Part shown: in pieces, positions 24,541 to 49,758 of the stretch | Layout of the letters: every line of letters starts with the position of its first letter | How positions within the stretch are numbered: position 1 is the stretch's first letter | DNA from: Opitutia bacterium | GTDB lineage: Bacteria; Verrucomicrobiota; Verrucomicrobiia; Opitutales; T3Sed10-336 | DNA: 56,975 nucleotides | Assembly (NCBI GenBank): GCA_003558065.1 | Contig: PWMU01000037.1 | Coordinates: forward strand, 83,473-140,447 | Direction of reading: 5' to 3' | The notes under the pieces: model-generated | Databases searched by the model: none | Seen by the model: the letters and a program-made list of their open reading frames with translations, nothing else | What the model was told of the DNA's origin: nothing | Position numbers and translations under genes: made by a program

Positions 24541-26310
24541 TTGGGATTTGTCTTTAGAAAATACGGCTTGATTGCCTTCACCGTCACCTGGGCGGCGTTG
24601 CTCGGTGCACTGCCGCTCAGGGCGGGCCAGGTGGTGCTCAATCACCCGGACCACCCGGTAGTCCATTCCAATTCCCTGGACCAGCCCCGGTTGGACGCGG
24701 TTTTGACGCGGAACGGGGAGGTGGTCGAGGATATGATGTACAACGCGTGGACTGGCGAGATGGAGATGATGCCGGCAGTCTTCCGGGCCTTCATCGATAC
24801 GGGGGCTTCCGGATTCGCTATAAGCAACCTGCATGTCGGGGAGAACGATCACGATGACATCCCGTCCTTCCATTTCACCGGCGGGGAATTTCTGGGGGAG
24901 TACACCAATCTCGGGCTCGGGGGGGAGGAGATCGGGGATGTGGTGGGAGAATTCGGACTCCGTATTCGCAATGGGCCGGTTGACCCATTCGGAATGGCCG
25001 CCGAATTTATCGAGGAGTTCGTCCCCTACGAAGACGACTTCCGCTTGTGGTCGAGACGGGCGCCCGGGGTGGGCGAGGTCAACGAAATCGACATGGGTGA
25101 TTGGATCTACGAACTGACCAGCCCGATCAATATCATCGGGATGCCCGTCATCGAGCAGCGGGTCATGGTCATGAACTGGGTGCGCAACGAGCTCCTTGAA
25201 GAGAGCTTTCCGGATGCCCGGGAGCTGCAGACTCACCTGCTGGATAAGGGCGACGGCGAGATTCCCGAGACCAACGTGACTCTCGACCTGGAAATGCGCG
25301 ATTTTGTCGGCGATCCGGCTTCGGGTGAAATGAATCCGACGTCGAGCCGCAACCCTTTGGTGAAGGATGTTACGATTACACACGACCCGGAAAGGGACAG
25401 CGTCACCGGGGACTGGTTGTTTGATACCGGCGCGGGGGCGTCGTTTATCAGCTTTGACTGGGCGCAGGCCATCGGGTTGATTCCCGGGGAGTTTGAAGAT
25501 CTGGAGAGTTACGTCGTCGTCCACGAGGATGCCGGAGGGATCGTTTCACAGGTTGGCGGGATCGGGCCTGATATCGTGACCGTGCCGGTGCTGGAATTGA
25601 ACGAACTCCGCGTGCCGGCCCGGGAGGGATTCGACCTGGTGTGGCAGAACGTGCGGCTCCTCGTGTTCGAGCACGAGGAACTGGCGGAACTCGACCTTGA
25701 GGGCATTTTCGGGATGAACCTCGTGGGGCCGTCGGTTACGCTGGACGCGAGTGTTTTCGATGGGGTCAATGTTTCCGATCCGGAACTCCTGTTGATGTTC
25801 TTCGAGGATATTTCGCCGCCGCCCGTCACGTCGATGGTGTTTGAAGTGACCGGGGAGAGCACCGGGGAGCTCCGGTTCGCCACCAATCGGGTCAATTCCT
25901 CCTACGACACCTGGCGCGCGGCCTATTTCAGCGAAGCGGAGCTCGAGGATGCCTCGGTAAGCGGCGACGAGGCGGACCCCGGCGGGTACGGGATCCCGAA
26001 CCTGTTGCGTTTCGCCTTTGCCATGGATGCAAGAGAGCCGCAGCGGGAACGCCTGCCCGAGCCGCTGTATTCGCCGGATAATGACGAAGGGGACTCTCCG
26101 GTCTCCCTTTGGTTTGATCGCCCGAGGGACGTGTCCGGCATCGAATATAGAGTGGATGCTTCCGAGGACCTGGACAATTGGACCCAGCTCGAGGCGGAAT
26201 GGCACGTGCGGGAGACTTTTCCGGACCGGGAGCGGGTGGAAGTGCGCGTGCCGCGATCTTCCGCGGAAGCGACAGGGGATTTTTTCCGGATACGGGTGGT
26301 CAGGGAGTAG
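24541..26310 (+). CDS. secreted bilobal aspartic protease-like protein with C-terminal surface module
   Basis: Translation from TTG 24541 gives 589 residues with a signal peptide (LIAFTVTWAALLGALPLRA). Two DTGA motifs are present: D86 in FIDTGASGFAIS and D295 in LFDTGAGASFIS, 209 residues apart, each resembling one lobe of a pepsin-type or retropepsin-type active site. The second lobe is completed by LEGIFGMNLVG, similar to the hydrophobic-Gly motif of aspartic proteases. Residues of about 460-589 form a separate module (VSGDEADPGGYGIPN ... YRVDASEDLDNW ... FFRIRVVRE) that is clearly homologous to the C-terminus of the protein at 47866-49758. Proteolysis is predicted, not proven. A clean ribosome site supports the start. 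Confidence 0.75.
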   Translation: MGFVFRKYGLIAFTVTWAALLGALPLRAGQVVLNHPDHPVVHSNSLDQPRLDAVLTRNGEVVEDMMYNAWTGEMEMMPAVFRAFIDTGASGFAISNLHVGENDHDDIPSFHFTGGEFLGEYTNLGLGGEEIGDVVGEFGLRIRNGPVDPFGMAAEFIEEFVPYEDDFRLWSRRAPGVGEVNEIDMGDWIYELTSPINIIGMPVIEQRVMVMNWVRNELLEESFPDARELQTHLLDKGDGEIPETNVTLDLEMRDFVGDPASGEMNPTSSRNPLVKDVTITHDPERDSVTGDWLFDTGAGASFISFDWAQAIGLIPGEFEDLESYVVVHEDAGGIVSQVGGIGPDIVTVPVLELNELRVPAREGFDLVWQNVRLLVFEHEELAELDLEGIFGMNLVGPSVTLDASVFDGVNVSDPELLLMFFEDISPPPVTSMVFEVTGESTGELRFATNRVNSSYDTWRAAYFSEAELEDASVSGDEADPGGYGIPNLLRFAFAMDAREPQRERLPEPLYSPDNDEGDSPVSLWFDRPRDVSGIEYRVDASEDLDNWTQLEAEWHVRETFPDRERVEVRVPRSSAEATGDFFRIRVVRE

Positions 26311-45072: not shown

Positions 45073-47103
45073 ATGCGAATCTGGCTTACTGCGGCAACAA
45101 GTATAATCCTGGCAACGGGCGGAGTGATGAACGCGAACCTGGCGGATCGGCAGTGGAGCGAGCCGAAGGATCTCGGCCCGCTTCTCGAGAATATATCCAT
45201 CCAGCATTGTGTGATCGGCGAAGAGGACGGCGAGCCGGCGGCGTACTTCACGGTGGCCGGGGAGCCGGCGGTGTTCAACGTCGTGGGCCTCGAGGATTAC
45301 CGGCTGATCGATTCATTTTCCCTCGAAGGTGCGGACCGGGCCTGGAGCCACGCGGTGGCGAGCGACGGGTCCGTTTATATCGCAGGGGTCGGGAGCGGAG
45401 CATCGGGACACCTTTACCGGTACCGGCCCGGGGCCGGCGAAGTAGAGGACCTGGGGGCGCCGGTTCGGGGGCACAAGTTTATCTGGGCGCTCGCCGCCGA
45501 CGAACGGGGCGGGGTATTCGGCGGCACCTGGGAGGGCGGCCATGTGTTTCATTTCGACGCGGATACCGGGGAGTATCGGGATTTCGGCAGGATCGATCCC
45601 GAAGAGGACTATATCCGCTCGATCGCTTTCCACAACGGCACCGTCTACGCCGGCTCGGGCGCGCGAAACGGGCGGGTTTGGCGAATCGAGCCGAAGAGCG
45701 GCGAGAGAAGCCGCATTGAGCTTCCGGTCAGGGAGGAGTATGCCGATGAAATCGACAACATGCGGAGCGCCTACCACCTGGCCGTCGCGGGCGATCACCT
45801 TTTTGCGTTTTTTGCAGCGTCCCGCGTGATGCTGGCTTACGACCTGCGGGACGATAAATGGTGGGACGAGACCTTTACCGGAGTGCGCGGGCCGGTAAGC
45901 GGGATTTCCTCGCCCGACCAAACACGGTTCTACTTCGTGAGTCGCTCCGACGGCTTTGTCGAAATCGATCTCGAAACCCGGAAATCCCGGGCGGTCGAAC
46001 GCTTCGACGGCGCATTCCGGGGCGGCGGATGGGTCCGGTTTCGCGATGAGGAAAGTTTTCCGGACAAGGTCCTGGTGACGGTTCACGGGAGCGGGGGCGT
46101 CGACTGGTACGATTTCGAGTCCGGGGAGTCGGGGTCACTTCCATCCCTCGCCCAGGGAACGCCGACCCCGATCCATGCGCTGGAAATGGGGCCGGACGGC
46201 GCCCTTTACGCGAGCGGCTACATGGGATCGAGCGGGGCGCGATTCGATCCCGCGACCCGGGAGATCGAGACCTTTGGGGTCGGCCAGGCCGAAAGCATCG
46301 CTTCGACGGATAAGACGGTTTACTGGGGCGTCTACCCGGGCGCGAGGATTTATGCGCAATCCGCAGGAAAGGGGGAGCTTCCCTCGCCGCGGCGGGCTTT
46401 CGAAATCGGCCATCATCAGGATCGTCCGTATGTGATGACGACCGGGGGAGGCAAACTGTTCATCGGAACCATCCCCGATTACGGGCGCCTTGGCGGGGTC
46501 CTGGCCGTTCGCGATCTGGGGGAGGAAGGTTCCGGTACCGGCGACGTCCGCGTGTATCCGGACATCGTGGACAAGCAGAGCATTGTGGGACTGGTCCGGC
46601 ACACTTCCGGTCTCCTGTTCGGGTCCACCTCTGTTTCGGGAGGATTGGGGATTGAGACCGAGGCCGAAAAAGCGCGGCTGTTCGTTTGGGATGTCGACAA
46701 TGAAAAGAAAATTCACGAATGGAGTCCGGAGCTGCCCGGTGCGGAGAAAGCGCCGATGATCAGCGGCCTGTCGCTCGGTCCGGACGACAACGTCTGGGGC
46801 GCGATGAACGGGGTGGTTTTCGTCATCGATCCTGAATCTTTCCAAATCGTTCGTTACCGCAATGTCTACCCCGATGTCACCCGCTACGGTCGCTGGCGGC
46901 CGGTCCACCTGCGGTGGGGATCCGACGGCCTGCTTTATTCCGATATCGCCGGACGGATTACCGTTATCGATCCCGAAACGCTCGAGTCCCTGGATCTCGG
47001 AGTTCGCTCCGGCCTGATGGCCCTCGATCGGGAGGACAACCTTTATTACGTGAGGGGATCCCGCCTCATGATGATTTCAGCGAAAAACAACAACGAAGAG
47101 TAA
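45073..47103 (+). CDS. secreted beta-propeller protein
   Basis: This 676-residue protein has a signal peptide (MRIWLTAATSIILATGG, cleavage near VMNA) and then repeated 45-60-residue units with the pattern GxVYxxxxxx...LYRYDPxTGExxxLG. Examples are GHLYRYRPGAGEVEDLGAP, GHVFHFDADTGEYRDFG and GRVWRIEPKSGERSRIEL. This is a beta-propeller of the kind found in PVC surface or periplasmic proteins linked to saccharide use. No catalytic motif is recognisable, so binding or lyase-type activity both remain open. The gene begins 10 bases after the regulator and its stop is 3 bases before the prepilin-like gene. Confidence 0.8.
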   Translation: MRIWLTAATSIILATGGVMNANLADRQWSEPKDLGPLLENISIQHCVIGEEDGEPAAYFTVAGEPAVFNVVGLEDYRLIDSFSLEGADRAWSHAVASDGSVYIAGVGSGASGHLYRYRPGAGEVEDLGAPVRGHKFIWALAADERGGVFGGTWEGGHVFHFDADTGEYRDFGRIDPEEDYIRSIAFHNGTVYAGSGARNGRVWRIEPKSGERSRIELPVREEYADEIDNMRSAYHLAVAGDHLFAFFAASRVMLAYDLRDDKWWDETFTGVRGPVSGISSPDQTRFYFVSRSDGFVEIDLETRKSRAVERFDGAFRGGGWVRFRDEESFPDKVLVTVHGSGGVDWYDFESGESGSLPSLAQGTPTPIHALEMGPDGALYASGYMGSSGARFDPATREIETFGVGQAESIASTDKTVYWGVYPGARIYAQSAGKGELPSPRRAFEIGHHQDRPYVMTTGGGKLFIGTIPDYGRLGGVLAVRDLGEEGSGTGDVRVYPDIVDKQSIVGLVRHTSGLLFGSTSVSGGLGIETEAEKARLFVWDVDNEKKIHEWSPELPGAEKAPMISGLSLGPDDNVWGAMNGVVFVIDPESFQIVRYRNVYPDVTRYGRWRPVHLRWGSDGLLYSDIAGRITVIDPETLESLDLGVRSGLMALDREDNLYYVRGSRLMMISAKNNNEE

Positions 47104-47105
47104 CC

Positions 47106-47819
47106 ATGACTACGCATCGCATCTTGGAACCGACAGGGCGCCGCCGGGCGGCCGGCGGATTTACGTTGATCGAGCTGCTTACCGTGATCGCGATTATCGG
47201 CATCCTGGCCGCCATCCTGATCCCGGTTGTCAGCAAGGTCCGGGAATCGGCCCGCGCCGCGAATTGCACTTCGAATCTCCGGGAGATCGGAGGTGCCATT
47301 GCCCTTTACACCAACGATAACGGCCGCACGCCGCCGTCCCGCGATCCGCGCTCGACCGGGGGCGCACGGACGCTCGCATGGACCCTTTGGACGTATGTGG
47401 GCTACGATATGAGCAGCTTCGGCTCCGAAATGAGCGGGCGGACCGGGAATCAGATGACCGTGTTCAATTGTCCCTCGACCGAAAACAATCCCATTCCCAC
47501 GCCCGATTCCACGGTGTTCACGTCCCGTCCGCATTCCTACATTCTCAATATGGGAGCCGCGGCCACCATCCTGGGGGGTGACTTCGAAAACGGGGTGAAT
47601 AACGGCTTTCCTATCGAGAATCTGCATACGCCCAGTCGCACCGTTTCCGTCTTTGAATGCTCATTCTATTACGGGGGGGCAGATCATTACCACAACCAGT
47701 ACGGACTGATGAGCCACGATGGTTCGTCGAACTTTCTCTACTGGGACGGCCATGTCGAACGCTTCAGCTACGAGGACGTCCCCGACGAATCGAACGATGT
47801 CTTCTGGTCCGGCCACTGA
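47106..47819 (+). CDS. prepilin-type N-terminal domain protein (PVC pseudopilin-like)
   Basis: The ATG at 47106 gives a 237-residue protein. A class III signal is cut between G18 and F19 in GG-FTLIELLTVIAIIG, with E23 as the conserved fifth residue of the mature form, followed by the usual hydrophobic helix (AAILIPVVSKVRESARAANC). The remainder is the globular domain typical of PVC proteins, ending with SHDGSSNFLYWDGHVERF, a variant of the H-x9-DG motif. Many copies of this family occur in such genomes, and export by a type II/IV-pilus-like machine is inferred. Position: three bases after the propeller gene and 47 bases before the next. Confidence 0.88.
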   Translation: MTTHRILEPTGRRRAAGGFTLIELLTVIAIIGILAAILIPVVSKVRESARAANCTSNLREIGGAIALYTNDNGRTPPSRDPRSTGGARTLAWTLWTYVGYDMSSFGSEMSGRTGNQMTVFNCPSTENNPIPTPDSTVFTSRPHSYILNMGAAATILGGDFENGVNNGFPIENLHTPSRTVSVFECSFYYGGADHYHNQYGLMSHDGSSNFLYWDGHVERFSYEDVPDESNDVFWSGH

Positions 47820-47865: not shown

Positions 47866-49758
47866 ATGAGCAAACCAAACAAACTTCTCGTGTTCGCGGC
47901 CGGCGCCGGTTTTGCCGCCGCAACCGTATTGAACGCCAATATATCGTTGACCGACGATTTTAACGACCGTGAGGTGGGCGACGAACTGATCGGTTCGACC
48001 ACTTCCGGCGGCCAGTGGGTGTGGACCGCCGCCTCCGAGGCGCAGCCGCTGATCGCCGAGGATGGCGACCGTACTTATGTCGATTTCGGTTCGGACAACC
48101 ACGAGTCGATGGGCTGGCAGTCGGCCGACGACGGCAGCCACCTGCGCGTCGATCCGGACGGCAAACTGGTCATCGAGTTCGACTACCTGTACCTGACGCC
48201 GTGGGGTGACAACAATGCCTTCAACGTGCGGTACCTGATGGAGGAGCGCTGGCTCAACCCCCTCAGCGGCGGCCACCCGGACCCGCAGGGCTACGGACTC
48301 CGCTTGCGGGTAACCGGGGACGAAACACTCGATTACGATATACGCCAACGGGGCGGGGGAGACTGGACCTCGGTCGCGGGTACCGAGGGGACCTTCGAGA
48401 CCTCCGGCCTGCTCGATTCCGACGGGGACACCCCGGGCCGTTCGGTTCGGATCCGGCTCGAGGTGGAGGGCAATCACCAGAGCCTCTGGATCGACGGCGA
48501 GCACAAATTCACCGTCGACATCGATCCGCTGCCCCAGAACGAGGAGTTCACCGGCGGTTACGTTCAGATGTGGACCAATGGCAGCCGCCGGCGGGCCATC
48601 GACAACCTCTCCATCGAGGGCATTCTCCCGGAACGTCCCGAACCCGGGTTTGCCGAATGGGTGCTGGAAGACGACTTCGAAAACCGCGAGGCCGGGCAGG
48701 ATCTCATCGGTACGGTCACTTCCGACGAGCAATGGGAATGGACCTACCACAGCGCGGTGTCGCCGGTCATCGGCGAACACGAAGGGCGCAAGTTCGTTGA
48801 TTTCGGAGGTGAGGACCAGTTGTCCATGACCTGGCAGTCCACCGACAACGGTGAGTACTTCCACCTCGATCCGGAGGAAACCCTGGTTTTCGAATACGAT
48901 TACCTCTACCTCACGGCCTGGGATGACCCCAACTTCTTGAATCTCCACTACCTGCTCGACGACCGATGGACCAATATGGGAGGCGCCAGCGATCCGACCG
49001 GCTACTCGCTGCGCCTGCAGGCGGCGGGCGTCAATACCCTCGAATACGCCATCCGCCACCGTTCCGGCGGGAGCTATTCGTCCGTTCCGGGTACCGAGGG
49101 AAGTGTCGAGGTGCCGGGGCTTATCAATACCTCCGACGGGGAAACCCCGGGCAACCCGGCGCGGATCCGCTTGGAAGTCCGGGGCAACCACCAGAGTCTC
49201 TGGATCGACGGCGAGCACCAGTTCACCGTCGACATCGATCCGCTGCCGCAGAACGAGGAATTCGAAAACGCGTTTGTCCAGTTCTGGTCCAACAGTGCCC
49301 GTCGCCGGGGTTTGGACAACCTCGCGATCGGCTACGTGGGGGAGGATGTTCCCGCCGCTGGATTCGACGATTGGCTCGACGGTTATTTCACTGAGGATCA
49401 GATCGGCGACGAGGACGTCAGCGGCCCCAACGCCGATCCGGCGGGAGACGGGATTCCGAACTTCCTGAAATACGCCTTGAACCTCGATCCCTGGGAATCC
49501 TCACGTTCCGCTCTGCCGGCCGCCGGCTGGGAGGACGGTCAGCTTTCGTTGACGTATCGCCGTCTCAAGGACGCCGAGGATGTCAGTTACATTGTAGAGG
49601 TCTCCAGCGACCTGGTCGACTGGGAGTCCGGACAGGACTACGTGGAGGTTGGCGCTGTTTCCGATGAAGGTGATGTCGAACGGGTCGAGGCGCTCGCGGT
49701 CGCCTTTCCCGGGGGCGCGGATCGTGGATTCATGCGCCTGCGGGTGGTCCGGGAATAG
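47866..49758 (+). CDS. secreted protein with two tandem jelly-roll-like domains and C-terminal surface module
   Basis: The ATG at 47866 gives 630 residues with a signal peptide ending near VLNA. Two copies of a domain of about 230 residues follow. They share ENREAGQDLIGT-type openings, the EFDYLYLTPWGD/FEYDYLYLTAWDD stretch, and NHQSLWIDGEHKFTVDIDPL near the end, and look like LamG/concanavalin-like beta-sandwich lectin domains. The last 125 residues (from YFTEDQIGDEDVSGPNADPA) match the C-terminus of the protein encoded at 24541. A strong terminator follows. The likely role is binding of a saccharide at the surface; no enzyme motif is seen. Confidence 0.82.
   Translation: MSKPNKLLVFAAGAGFAAATVLNANISLTDDFNDREVGDELIGSTTSGGQWVWTAASEAQPLIAEDGDRTYVDFGSDNHESMGWQSADDGSHLRVDPDGKLVIEFDYLYLTPWGDNNAFNVRYLMEERWLNPLSGGHPDPQGYGLRLRVTGDETLDYDIRQRGGGDWTSVAGTEGTFETSGLLDSDGDTPGRSVRIRLEVEGNHQSLWIDGEHKFTVDIDPLPQNEEFTGGYVQMWTNGSRRRAIDNLSIEGILPERPEPGFAEWVLEDDFENREAGQDLIGTVTSDEQWEWTYHSAVSPVIGEHEGRKFVDFGGEDQLSMTWQSTDNGEYFHLDPEETLVFEYDYLYLTAWDDPNFLNLHYLLDDRWTNMGGASDPTGYSLRLQAAGVNTLEYAIRHRSGGSYSSVPGTEGSVEVPGLINTSDGETPGNPARIRLEVRGNHQSLWIDGEHQFTVDIDPLPQNEEFENAFVQFWSNSARRRGLDNLAIGYVGEDVPAAGFDDWLDGYFTEDQIGDEDVSGPNADPAGDGIPNFLKYALNLDPWESSRSALPAAGWEDGQLSLTYRRLKDAEDVSYIVEVSSDLVDWESGQDYVEVGAVSDEGDVERVEALAVAFPGGADRGFMRLRVVRE
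48472..48549 (+). repeat. intragenic duplicated segment, copy 1
   Basis: This 78-base stretch encodes NHQSLWIDGEHKFTVDIDPL and the following residues of the first jelly-roll domain. It is nearly identical at DNA level to 49186-49263, with about seven differences, mostly at third codon positions. Confidence 0.85.
49186..49263 (+). repeat. intragenic duplicated segment, copy 2
   Basis: The second copy of the 78-base element lies in the second jelly-roll domain. The rest of the two domains is much more diverged, so this segment may be under gene conversion or strong functional constraint. Confidence 0.85.

Follow-up and report, generated by a model that had tools for sequence, protein, structure and literature searches.

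The window analysed here is a stretch of 56,975 nucleotides from an Opitutia bacterium, located on contig C74 of a host genome of 4.13 Mb in 197 contigs. Two of its forward-strand genes encode secreted proteins with a common C-terminal module. The first gene, at 24541..26310, starts with TTG and encodes an aspartic-protease-like protein of 589 residues, for which a profile search returned an Asp_protease_2 match of 2.3e-05. The second, at 47866..49758, starts at an internal ATG and encodes a jelly-roll protein of 630 residues. The initial annotation, made from the sequence alone, had described homologous C-termini, each behind a signal peptide, on otherwise unrelated proteins, and this description was borne out. 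Both open reading frames have a signal-peptide-like N-terminus, and BLASTP aligned 25918-26307 with 49360-49755 over 131 columns at 37% identity (E 1e-20), while comparison of the regions N-terminal of the modules gave no homology (E 0.30). The homology of the two C-termini is not due to chance, because the host genome contains 87 places matching a one-module query at E<=1 and 99 matching the profile of a 57-member alignment at E<=0.01.

The full-length alignment proposed for the module held up, with a true start slightly earlier than first described. As homology begins at an FxxW sequence, module 1 is placed at 25903..26307 (+), up to the last residue, and module 2 at 49363..49755 (+); their matches to the host-genome profile are 3.7e-38 and 1.3e-42, respectively. 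A loop resembling the bacterial TSP3 repeat was identified by sequence reading and alignment column counts as DPGGYGIPN in module 1 (25975..26001, +) and DPAGDGIPN in module 2 (49435..49461, +). The C-terminal strands are FFRIRVVRE (26281..26307, +) and FMRLRVVRE (49729..49755, +), and both proteins therefore end in F-x-R-x-R-V-V-R-E. The VVRE ending singled out earlier is common to the two window proteins but is not general, as other copies close with VERR, VTLD, VGLTD and others; the conserved elements are instead a phenylalanine and an arginine, F123 and R125. An open reading frame just 5′ of the jelly-roll gene (46914-47819, +) shows a prepilin-type N-terminus (GFTLIELLTVIAIIGILAAILIPVV) together with a DGHVE stretch at its C-terminus. 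One of the two exosortase genes of the host lies on the same contig, approximately 54 kb before the window (C74:28837-29769).

The module is predicted to be a domain of ~130 residues that opens with an FxxW helix, continues with a DPxGDGxxN loop like that of bacterial TSP3 repeats and closes with an Ig-like beta sandwich, whose end reads F-x-R-L-R-V. Alignment A3 contains 57 of the 59 module references, and AlphaFold2, run on a 57-row alignment with module 2 as the copy to be folded, gave a mean pLDDT of 96.7 and a pTM of 0.87. The model has four short helices followed by seven strands across residues 53-130, with the C-terminal strand at residues 123-130. The most conserved residues in A3 (n=57) are W4 (55), G30 (53), N33 (52), F123 (53) and R125 (56). 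Because F123, R125 and R127 alternate with hydrophobic residues at 124, 126 and 128, they should sit on one face of the last strand, and this conserved R125 face may have a role of its own. Aspartate occupies loop positions 25, 27 and 29 in 40/57, 17/57 and 41/57 members, and calcium binding therefore cannot be general.

No Pfam or NCBIfam model was found to describe the module when 57 members were scanned at E<=0.1. DUF3999 touches 12/57 members (best 3e-4) and F5/8 type C 2/57; both families share a Y-x-V-x-x-S-x-D-L-x-x-W-like stretch with the module, but the matches are short and partial (~40 of 424 positions where the span is given) and never cover the whole domain. The DPxGDGxxN...GxDP segment resembles one bacterial TSP3 repeat (PF18884), which was matched in 1/57 copies (0.0014). 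In contrast to that family, the module has a single repeat, in which acidic positions are often degenerate, joined to an Ig-like sandwich. A Foldseek search with the predicted structure found no match at E<=1e-3, and a profile search of PDB sequences gave one match at chance level. VIA-align scored highest, at Z 7.0, against FN3/Ig domains, the comparison spanning no more than residues 51-131 and barely covering the N-terminal third; this likeness appears generic and, being confined to these residues, offers no functional hint. The PDB chain 9s8x aligns to residues 1-496 of L107, a module-bearing sulfatase related to that of Akkermansia described below, and seems to be without the module, as it ends there and the module begins at residue 501.

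An HMM search of fetched host stretches gave 101 module matches, of which 15 sit on short fragments or extend past the end of the sequence and the other 86 fall on 81 closed genes (>=200 aa). The module is C-terminal in 75 of these 81, and mid-protein copies thus do not occur at a similar frequency. In 62 of the 75 C-terminal copies the beginning of the F-x-R motif lies 8-11 residues ahead of the stop. The six exceptions comprise three genes with ~225-230 residues past the module (C128, C24 and C153), one with 379 (C91) and two partial matches (C156 and C71). A jelly-roll-like stretch follows the module in C128 and C24, and C153 was judged by length alone. Tandem modules occur in two genes (C66 and C168). 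The proposal of a C-terminal signal is therefore retained as regards the tail position, but the module is a folded domain rather than a short signal, and mid-protein or tandem copies occur in small number. In two further genes, L090 (C195) and L195 (C32:19717), the module is interrupted by several hundred residues and still ends in F-x-R-L-R-V. Contigs C95/C191, C80/C125, C161, C20, C192, C7 and C111 end or start inside a module or module gene, a pattern that would be expected if assembly had failed at repeats surrounding the modules. A recent burst of gene conversion was considered but set aside: the best match of a module lies within its own genome in 53/77 cases against 37.3 expected, yet 18 host modules have their best match in the metagenome-assembled genome (MAG) PXDC.

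The C-terminal placement recurs in other species. In 80 named-species loci, 81/91 closed matches are C-terminal; these loci belong to Verrucomicrobia-type bacteria, two Kiritimatiellae, one Lentisphaerae and a few organisms named just ‘bacterium’. In the complete genome G140, 49/51 modules lie at the C-terminus, with 1-4 residues past the match. The expectation that the module is always C-terminal thus holds for the large majority of copies in all three sets. In a phylum sample of 288 genomes, 153 have a module match at E<=1e-3, as do 142/251 of those of good quality; per-genome counts reaching 14 in this sample are to be read as at least 14. Only the matches with better E-values were taken from G140 (51 of 58) and from a second genome, G254 (41 of 51).

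Signal peptides were called with a home-made heuristic based on charge, a 10-residue hydrophobic core and a cleavage-like site. By this heuristic, 50/57 complete host module genes have a signal-peptide-like start compared with 43/116 control genes, and in the named loci the counts are 45/57 module genes and 87/181 other genes. The signal peptide suggested to accompany every module is consequently enriched among module genes but not found in all of them. The proteins to which the module is attached are diverse: their passenger regions form 37 clusters among 85 regions, and 140 Pfam families were found in the 72 regions scanned, including LamG, subtilase, GH115, WD40 and zinc carboxypeptidase. 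The 72 regions, which make up set A5, are those of 75 that remain after the three longest were left out for size.

A folded domain with generic Ig/FN3 likeness, occurring at times mid-protein or in tandem, could be an ordinary accessory domain. According to this explanation, a TSP3-like spacer and an Ig-like sandwich would stabilise the protein or bind a ligand and would have spread by duplication, and both its C-terminal place and any link to other sorting tails would arise only because large secreted beta-sandwich families are shared. The narrow range of distances between motif and stop in the host genome and the nearly invariable C-terminal position in G140 argue against it, and it is considered somewhat unlikely. 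Two further observations, described below, bear on the same question: the genomes in which the module occurs and the exchange of tails between proteins.

It had been suggested that the number of modules might track a secretion or sortase-like gene, and the presence of the module was found to track one, exosortase (PF09721). Genomes with a match below about 1e-10 were treated as strong module genomes (n=104) and the other 49 of the 153 positives as weak. Exosortase is present in 103/104 strong module genomes compared with 111/184 others (Fisher 3e-16 across the 288 genomes, kinship ignored). For all module genomes at E<=1e-3 the figures are 145/153 and 69/135, again with kinship ignored. The sole strong module genome without a PF09721 match is G113, taken as Akkermansia muciniphila ATCC BAA-835. 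The search probably missed an exosortase there, because G113 encodes 18 PEP-CTERM proteins and the available text of the genome paper names the exosortase Amuc_1470 (PMC3048395). The exosortase system is thus evident in all 104 strong module genomes, in G113 from the PEP-CTERM proteins. LamG_3, another secreted domain used as a control, occurs in 254/288 genomes and therefore also in most of those lacking exosortase, namely 47 to 61 of 74, a range based on the 20 of 34 LamG_3-negative genomes that are listed. The near absence of the module from exosortase-less genomes, unlike LamG_3, is a second argument against an ordinary accessory domain. Within genus g29, the Akkermansia-type genomes, ten have both module and exosortase, one the module only (G113), five exosortase only and six neither. 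In G231, of the same genus, there is no exosortase and no PEP-CTERM protein, and this genome is not among the module-positive ones.

PEP-CTERM is itself a C-terminal tail found on many diverse signal-peptide proteins, with tens of copies per genome, in the portion of PMC1569441 available. PEP-CTERM proteins have been connected with exopolysaccharide and with the formation of flocs (PMC1569441, PMC9850573 and PMC9012009, in the sections available). The module resembles the PEP-CTERM/exosortase system (PF07589, TIGR02595; EpsH PF09721) in its C-terminal position, its diverse signal-peptide passengers, its tens of copies, its shared passengers and its presence in the same genomes. The two tails differ in build: PEP-CTERM has ~24 residues with a PEP motif, a transmembrane helix and a basic cluster, whereas the module has ~130 residues and is folded. 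None of these three elements was seen in the module alignments, and PF07589 had no match in 57 members (E<=0.1).

The host genome contains 26 PEP-CTERM matches over the cut-off and two exosortases (PF09721). Among the 25 PEP-CTERM places read, of 30 listed, 13 proteins have a passenger homologous to that of a module-tailed protein (BLASTP <=1e-5). The pairs include those on C71 (71% over 343 aa), C46 (57% over 220), C160/C135 (50% over 230), C151 (49% over 239) and C82 (40% over 225), and on the module side of several pairs the homology ends 11-30 residues before the module. In control genes of the same stretches, passengers are shared by 6/43 signal-peptide genes and 0/131 genes without a signal peptide (Fisher P 0.0016 for PEP-CTERM against signal-peptide genes). 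One of the six sharing genes, C32:27270, carries a variant of the PEP-CTERM tail and matches the adjoining module-tailed protein at 68%, and two have a short Ig-only tail. The six are in keeping with an ordinary accessory domain, but the exchange of tails exceeds these controls, and the adjacency of genes, described below, exceeds its own; both speak against such a domain. The control set is small, and in it only 1/6 PEP-type open reading frames has a passenger homologous to a module protein, which counts against a localisation role. Passenger sharing recurs in named MAGs, in adjoining genes of L117 (56% over 285 aa) and in L120 and L134. In G140, a passenger in common with module proteins was seen for 10/20 PEP-CTERM proteins and 2/17 other open reading frames; a large share of the alignments cover little sequence and probably reflect repeats, a further point against that role. 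Two host signal-peptide proteins (C153:3089 and C153:8279) have passengers in common with module proteins but end differently: the TSP3-like part is missing from their tail, which is Ig-only and shorter (S-x-D-x-x-x-W ... RFFRV). This is perhaps a third type of tail.

Genes for the two kinds of protein also lie side by side. Ten of the 26 host PEP-CTERM genes over the cut-off adjoin a module gene, as does one below it. Most of these pairs share a strand and are separated by 69-469 bp; one pair overlaps stop to stop and one is on opposite strands, 541 bp apart. The binomial P is 2.5e-7 at an assumed chance of 5% per gene and 1.2e-4 at 10%, with kinship ignored. A PEP-CTERM gene lies <=600 bp from 4/51 module genes in G140, compared with 0.48 under random shifts (P 0.0005), and near 5/41 in G254, compared with 1.22 (P 0.005). 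Neither window module gene has a PEP-CTERM neighbour, as all PF07589 places are on other contigs, and this too weighs against a localisation role.

In the Akkermansia-type genomes a PEP-CTERM gene is directly beside the module gene in 9/17 loci and one to two genes away in four more, a count biased upward because some loci were picked once a nearby PEP-CTERM gene was known. The fairer counts for direct adjacency are 2/2 in G113, 3/6 in G033 and 2/4 in G021. The module places taken were all two in G113, all six in G033, four of five matches in G021, three of four in G111 and two of four listed in G220. In the phylum-sample search only two module copies were found in G113. A domain scan identified their genes as a sulfatase with PA14 and BACON domains and a GH18 protein with LamG and BACON domains. 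As the available text of PMC3048395 gives Amuc_0953 and Amuc_2164 as the two BACON proteins of A. muciniphila, these would be the sulfatase and the GH18 protein. Both genes directly follow a PEP-CTERM gene. Among the 14 G113 PEP-CTERM genes whose surroundings were read (13 found by pattern and one by tail), a same-strand signal-peptide enzyme of >1000 aa comes directly after these two only. By its number, Amuc_2165 is likely to be the gene beside the GH18 module gene. It has been reported that cells grown on glucose contain Amuc_2165 in their outer-membrane fraction, and that three of four such outer-membrane-fraction proteins have PEP-CTERM (PMC4960237, in the part available). The two module enzymes are not named in the available main text of this outer-membrane proteome study. 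They are named solely as enzymes in the available text of PMC12834350 and PMC9415379, and in that of PMC12057145 TSP3 is brought up only for a giant protein. At the Akkermansia sulfatase locus (L235, L239, L241, L242 and L243) a PEP-CTERM gene always adjoins.

The direct adjacency in the host genome and in Akkermansia, together with the position of both G113 module genes behind PEP-CTERM genes that alone among the 14 are followed by a large secreted enzyme, could be explained by docking. The module would then bind a neighbouring PEP-CTERM protein placed at the surface by exosortase, by analogy with dockerin on an anchored cohesin, and its calcium-loop-like segment would be in keeping with this. 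Such neighbours are nevertheless rare in G140 and G254, and no dockerin family was matched in 57 module members (E<=0.1). The partners at the sulfatase locus also differ between species, the passenger of the L235 (G033) neighbour not being clearly homologous to those of L239, L241, L242 and L243. Docking is accordingly regarded as improbable.

Substrates of the type IX secretion system combine a Sec signal peptide and diverse passengers with a C-terminal Ig-like domain. Module proteins follow the same general plan, with a folded beta sandwich at the extreme C-terminus and a conserved last strand, and the module could in principle be a C-terminal secretion signal read by a putative outer-membrane translocon. 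No Por_Secre_tail or other type IX C-terminal domain family was matched in the 57 members (Pfam and NCBIfam, E<=0.1), and some module copies are mid-protein. SprA was matched in 0/288 genomes, the control genomes being likewise without a match. There is no support for this route beyond the similar plan, and it is very unlikely. The initial annotation had proposed sorting, anchoring or secretion by an export route specific to PVC bacteria; sorting or anchoring agrees with the exchange of passengers with PEP-CTERM, but a new PVC-specific secretion route was not supported, as no dedicated translocon was found and the observed link leads to exosortase/PEP-CTERM, a system already known.

Shared passengers, gene adjacency and co-occurrence therefore indicate a compartment or pathway common to module and PEP-CTERM proteins. 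A folded tail that retains Sec-exported proteins in the surface layer with no membrane segment would be the simplest explanation. The module may thus be, at about even confidence, a folded localisation domain at the C-terminus of Verrucomicrobiota proteins and a non-membrane counterpart of the PEP-CTERM tail. Proteins bearing it would be exported by Sec and then held at, or directed to, the cell surface or the exopolysaccharide layer served by the exosortase/PEP-CTERM system, the module acting as a soluble, non-transmembrane equivalent of the PEP-CTERM tail. One passenger could in this way be made in two forms, membrane-processed with PEP-CTERM and module-bearing, often from neighbouring genes. 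Retention at the surface or in exopolysaccharide is proposed, and the binding partner may be the exopolysaccharide or a neighbouring PEP-CTERM protein. The few mid-protein copies with nothing recognisable at the protein end (C128, C24, C153 and C91) fit a localisation domain less well, and the co-occurrence and adjacency statistics that favour it ignore shared ancestry.

No description of the module domain was recognised in the titles and abstract openings of the papers searched; to our knowledge, the link to exosortase is new. This unnamed domain caps about 75-100 exported proteins of one genome and is present across the phylum; in Akkermansia, a gut bacterium, it is found on enzymes that degrade mucus. 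A bolder and rather unlikely extension is that it represents a second class of C-terminal sorting tail in Verrucomicrobiota, working only with exosortase. A surface receptor or matrix that depends on exosortase, for which the neighbouring PEP-CTERM protein is a candidate, would capture the TSP3-Ig domain. In the course of evolution this domain and PEP-CTERM would replace each other on a given passenger, yielding matrix-held and anchored forms; in Akkermansia it would hold the BACON-bearing mucin sulfatase and GH18 enzyme at the surface. A. muciniphila, with the two copies found, is a testable case, and a domain that trades places with PEP-CTERM is a handle on the role of exosortase in PVC bacteria.
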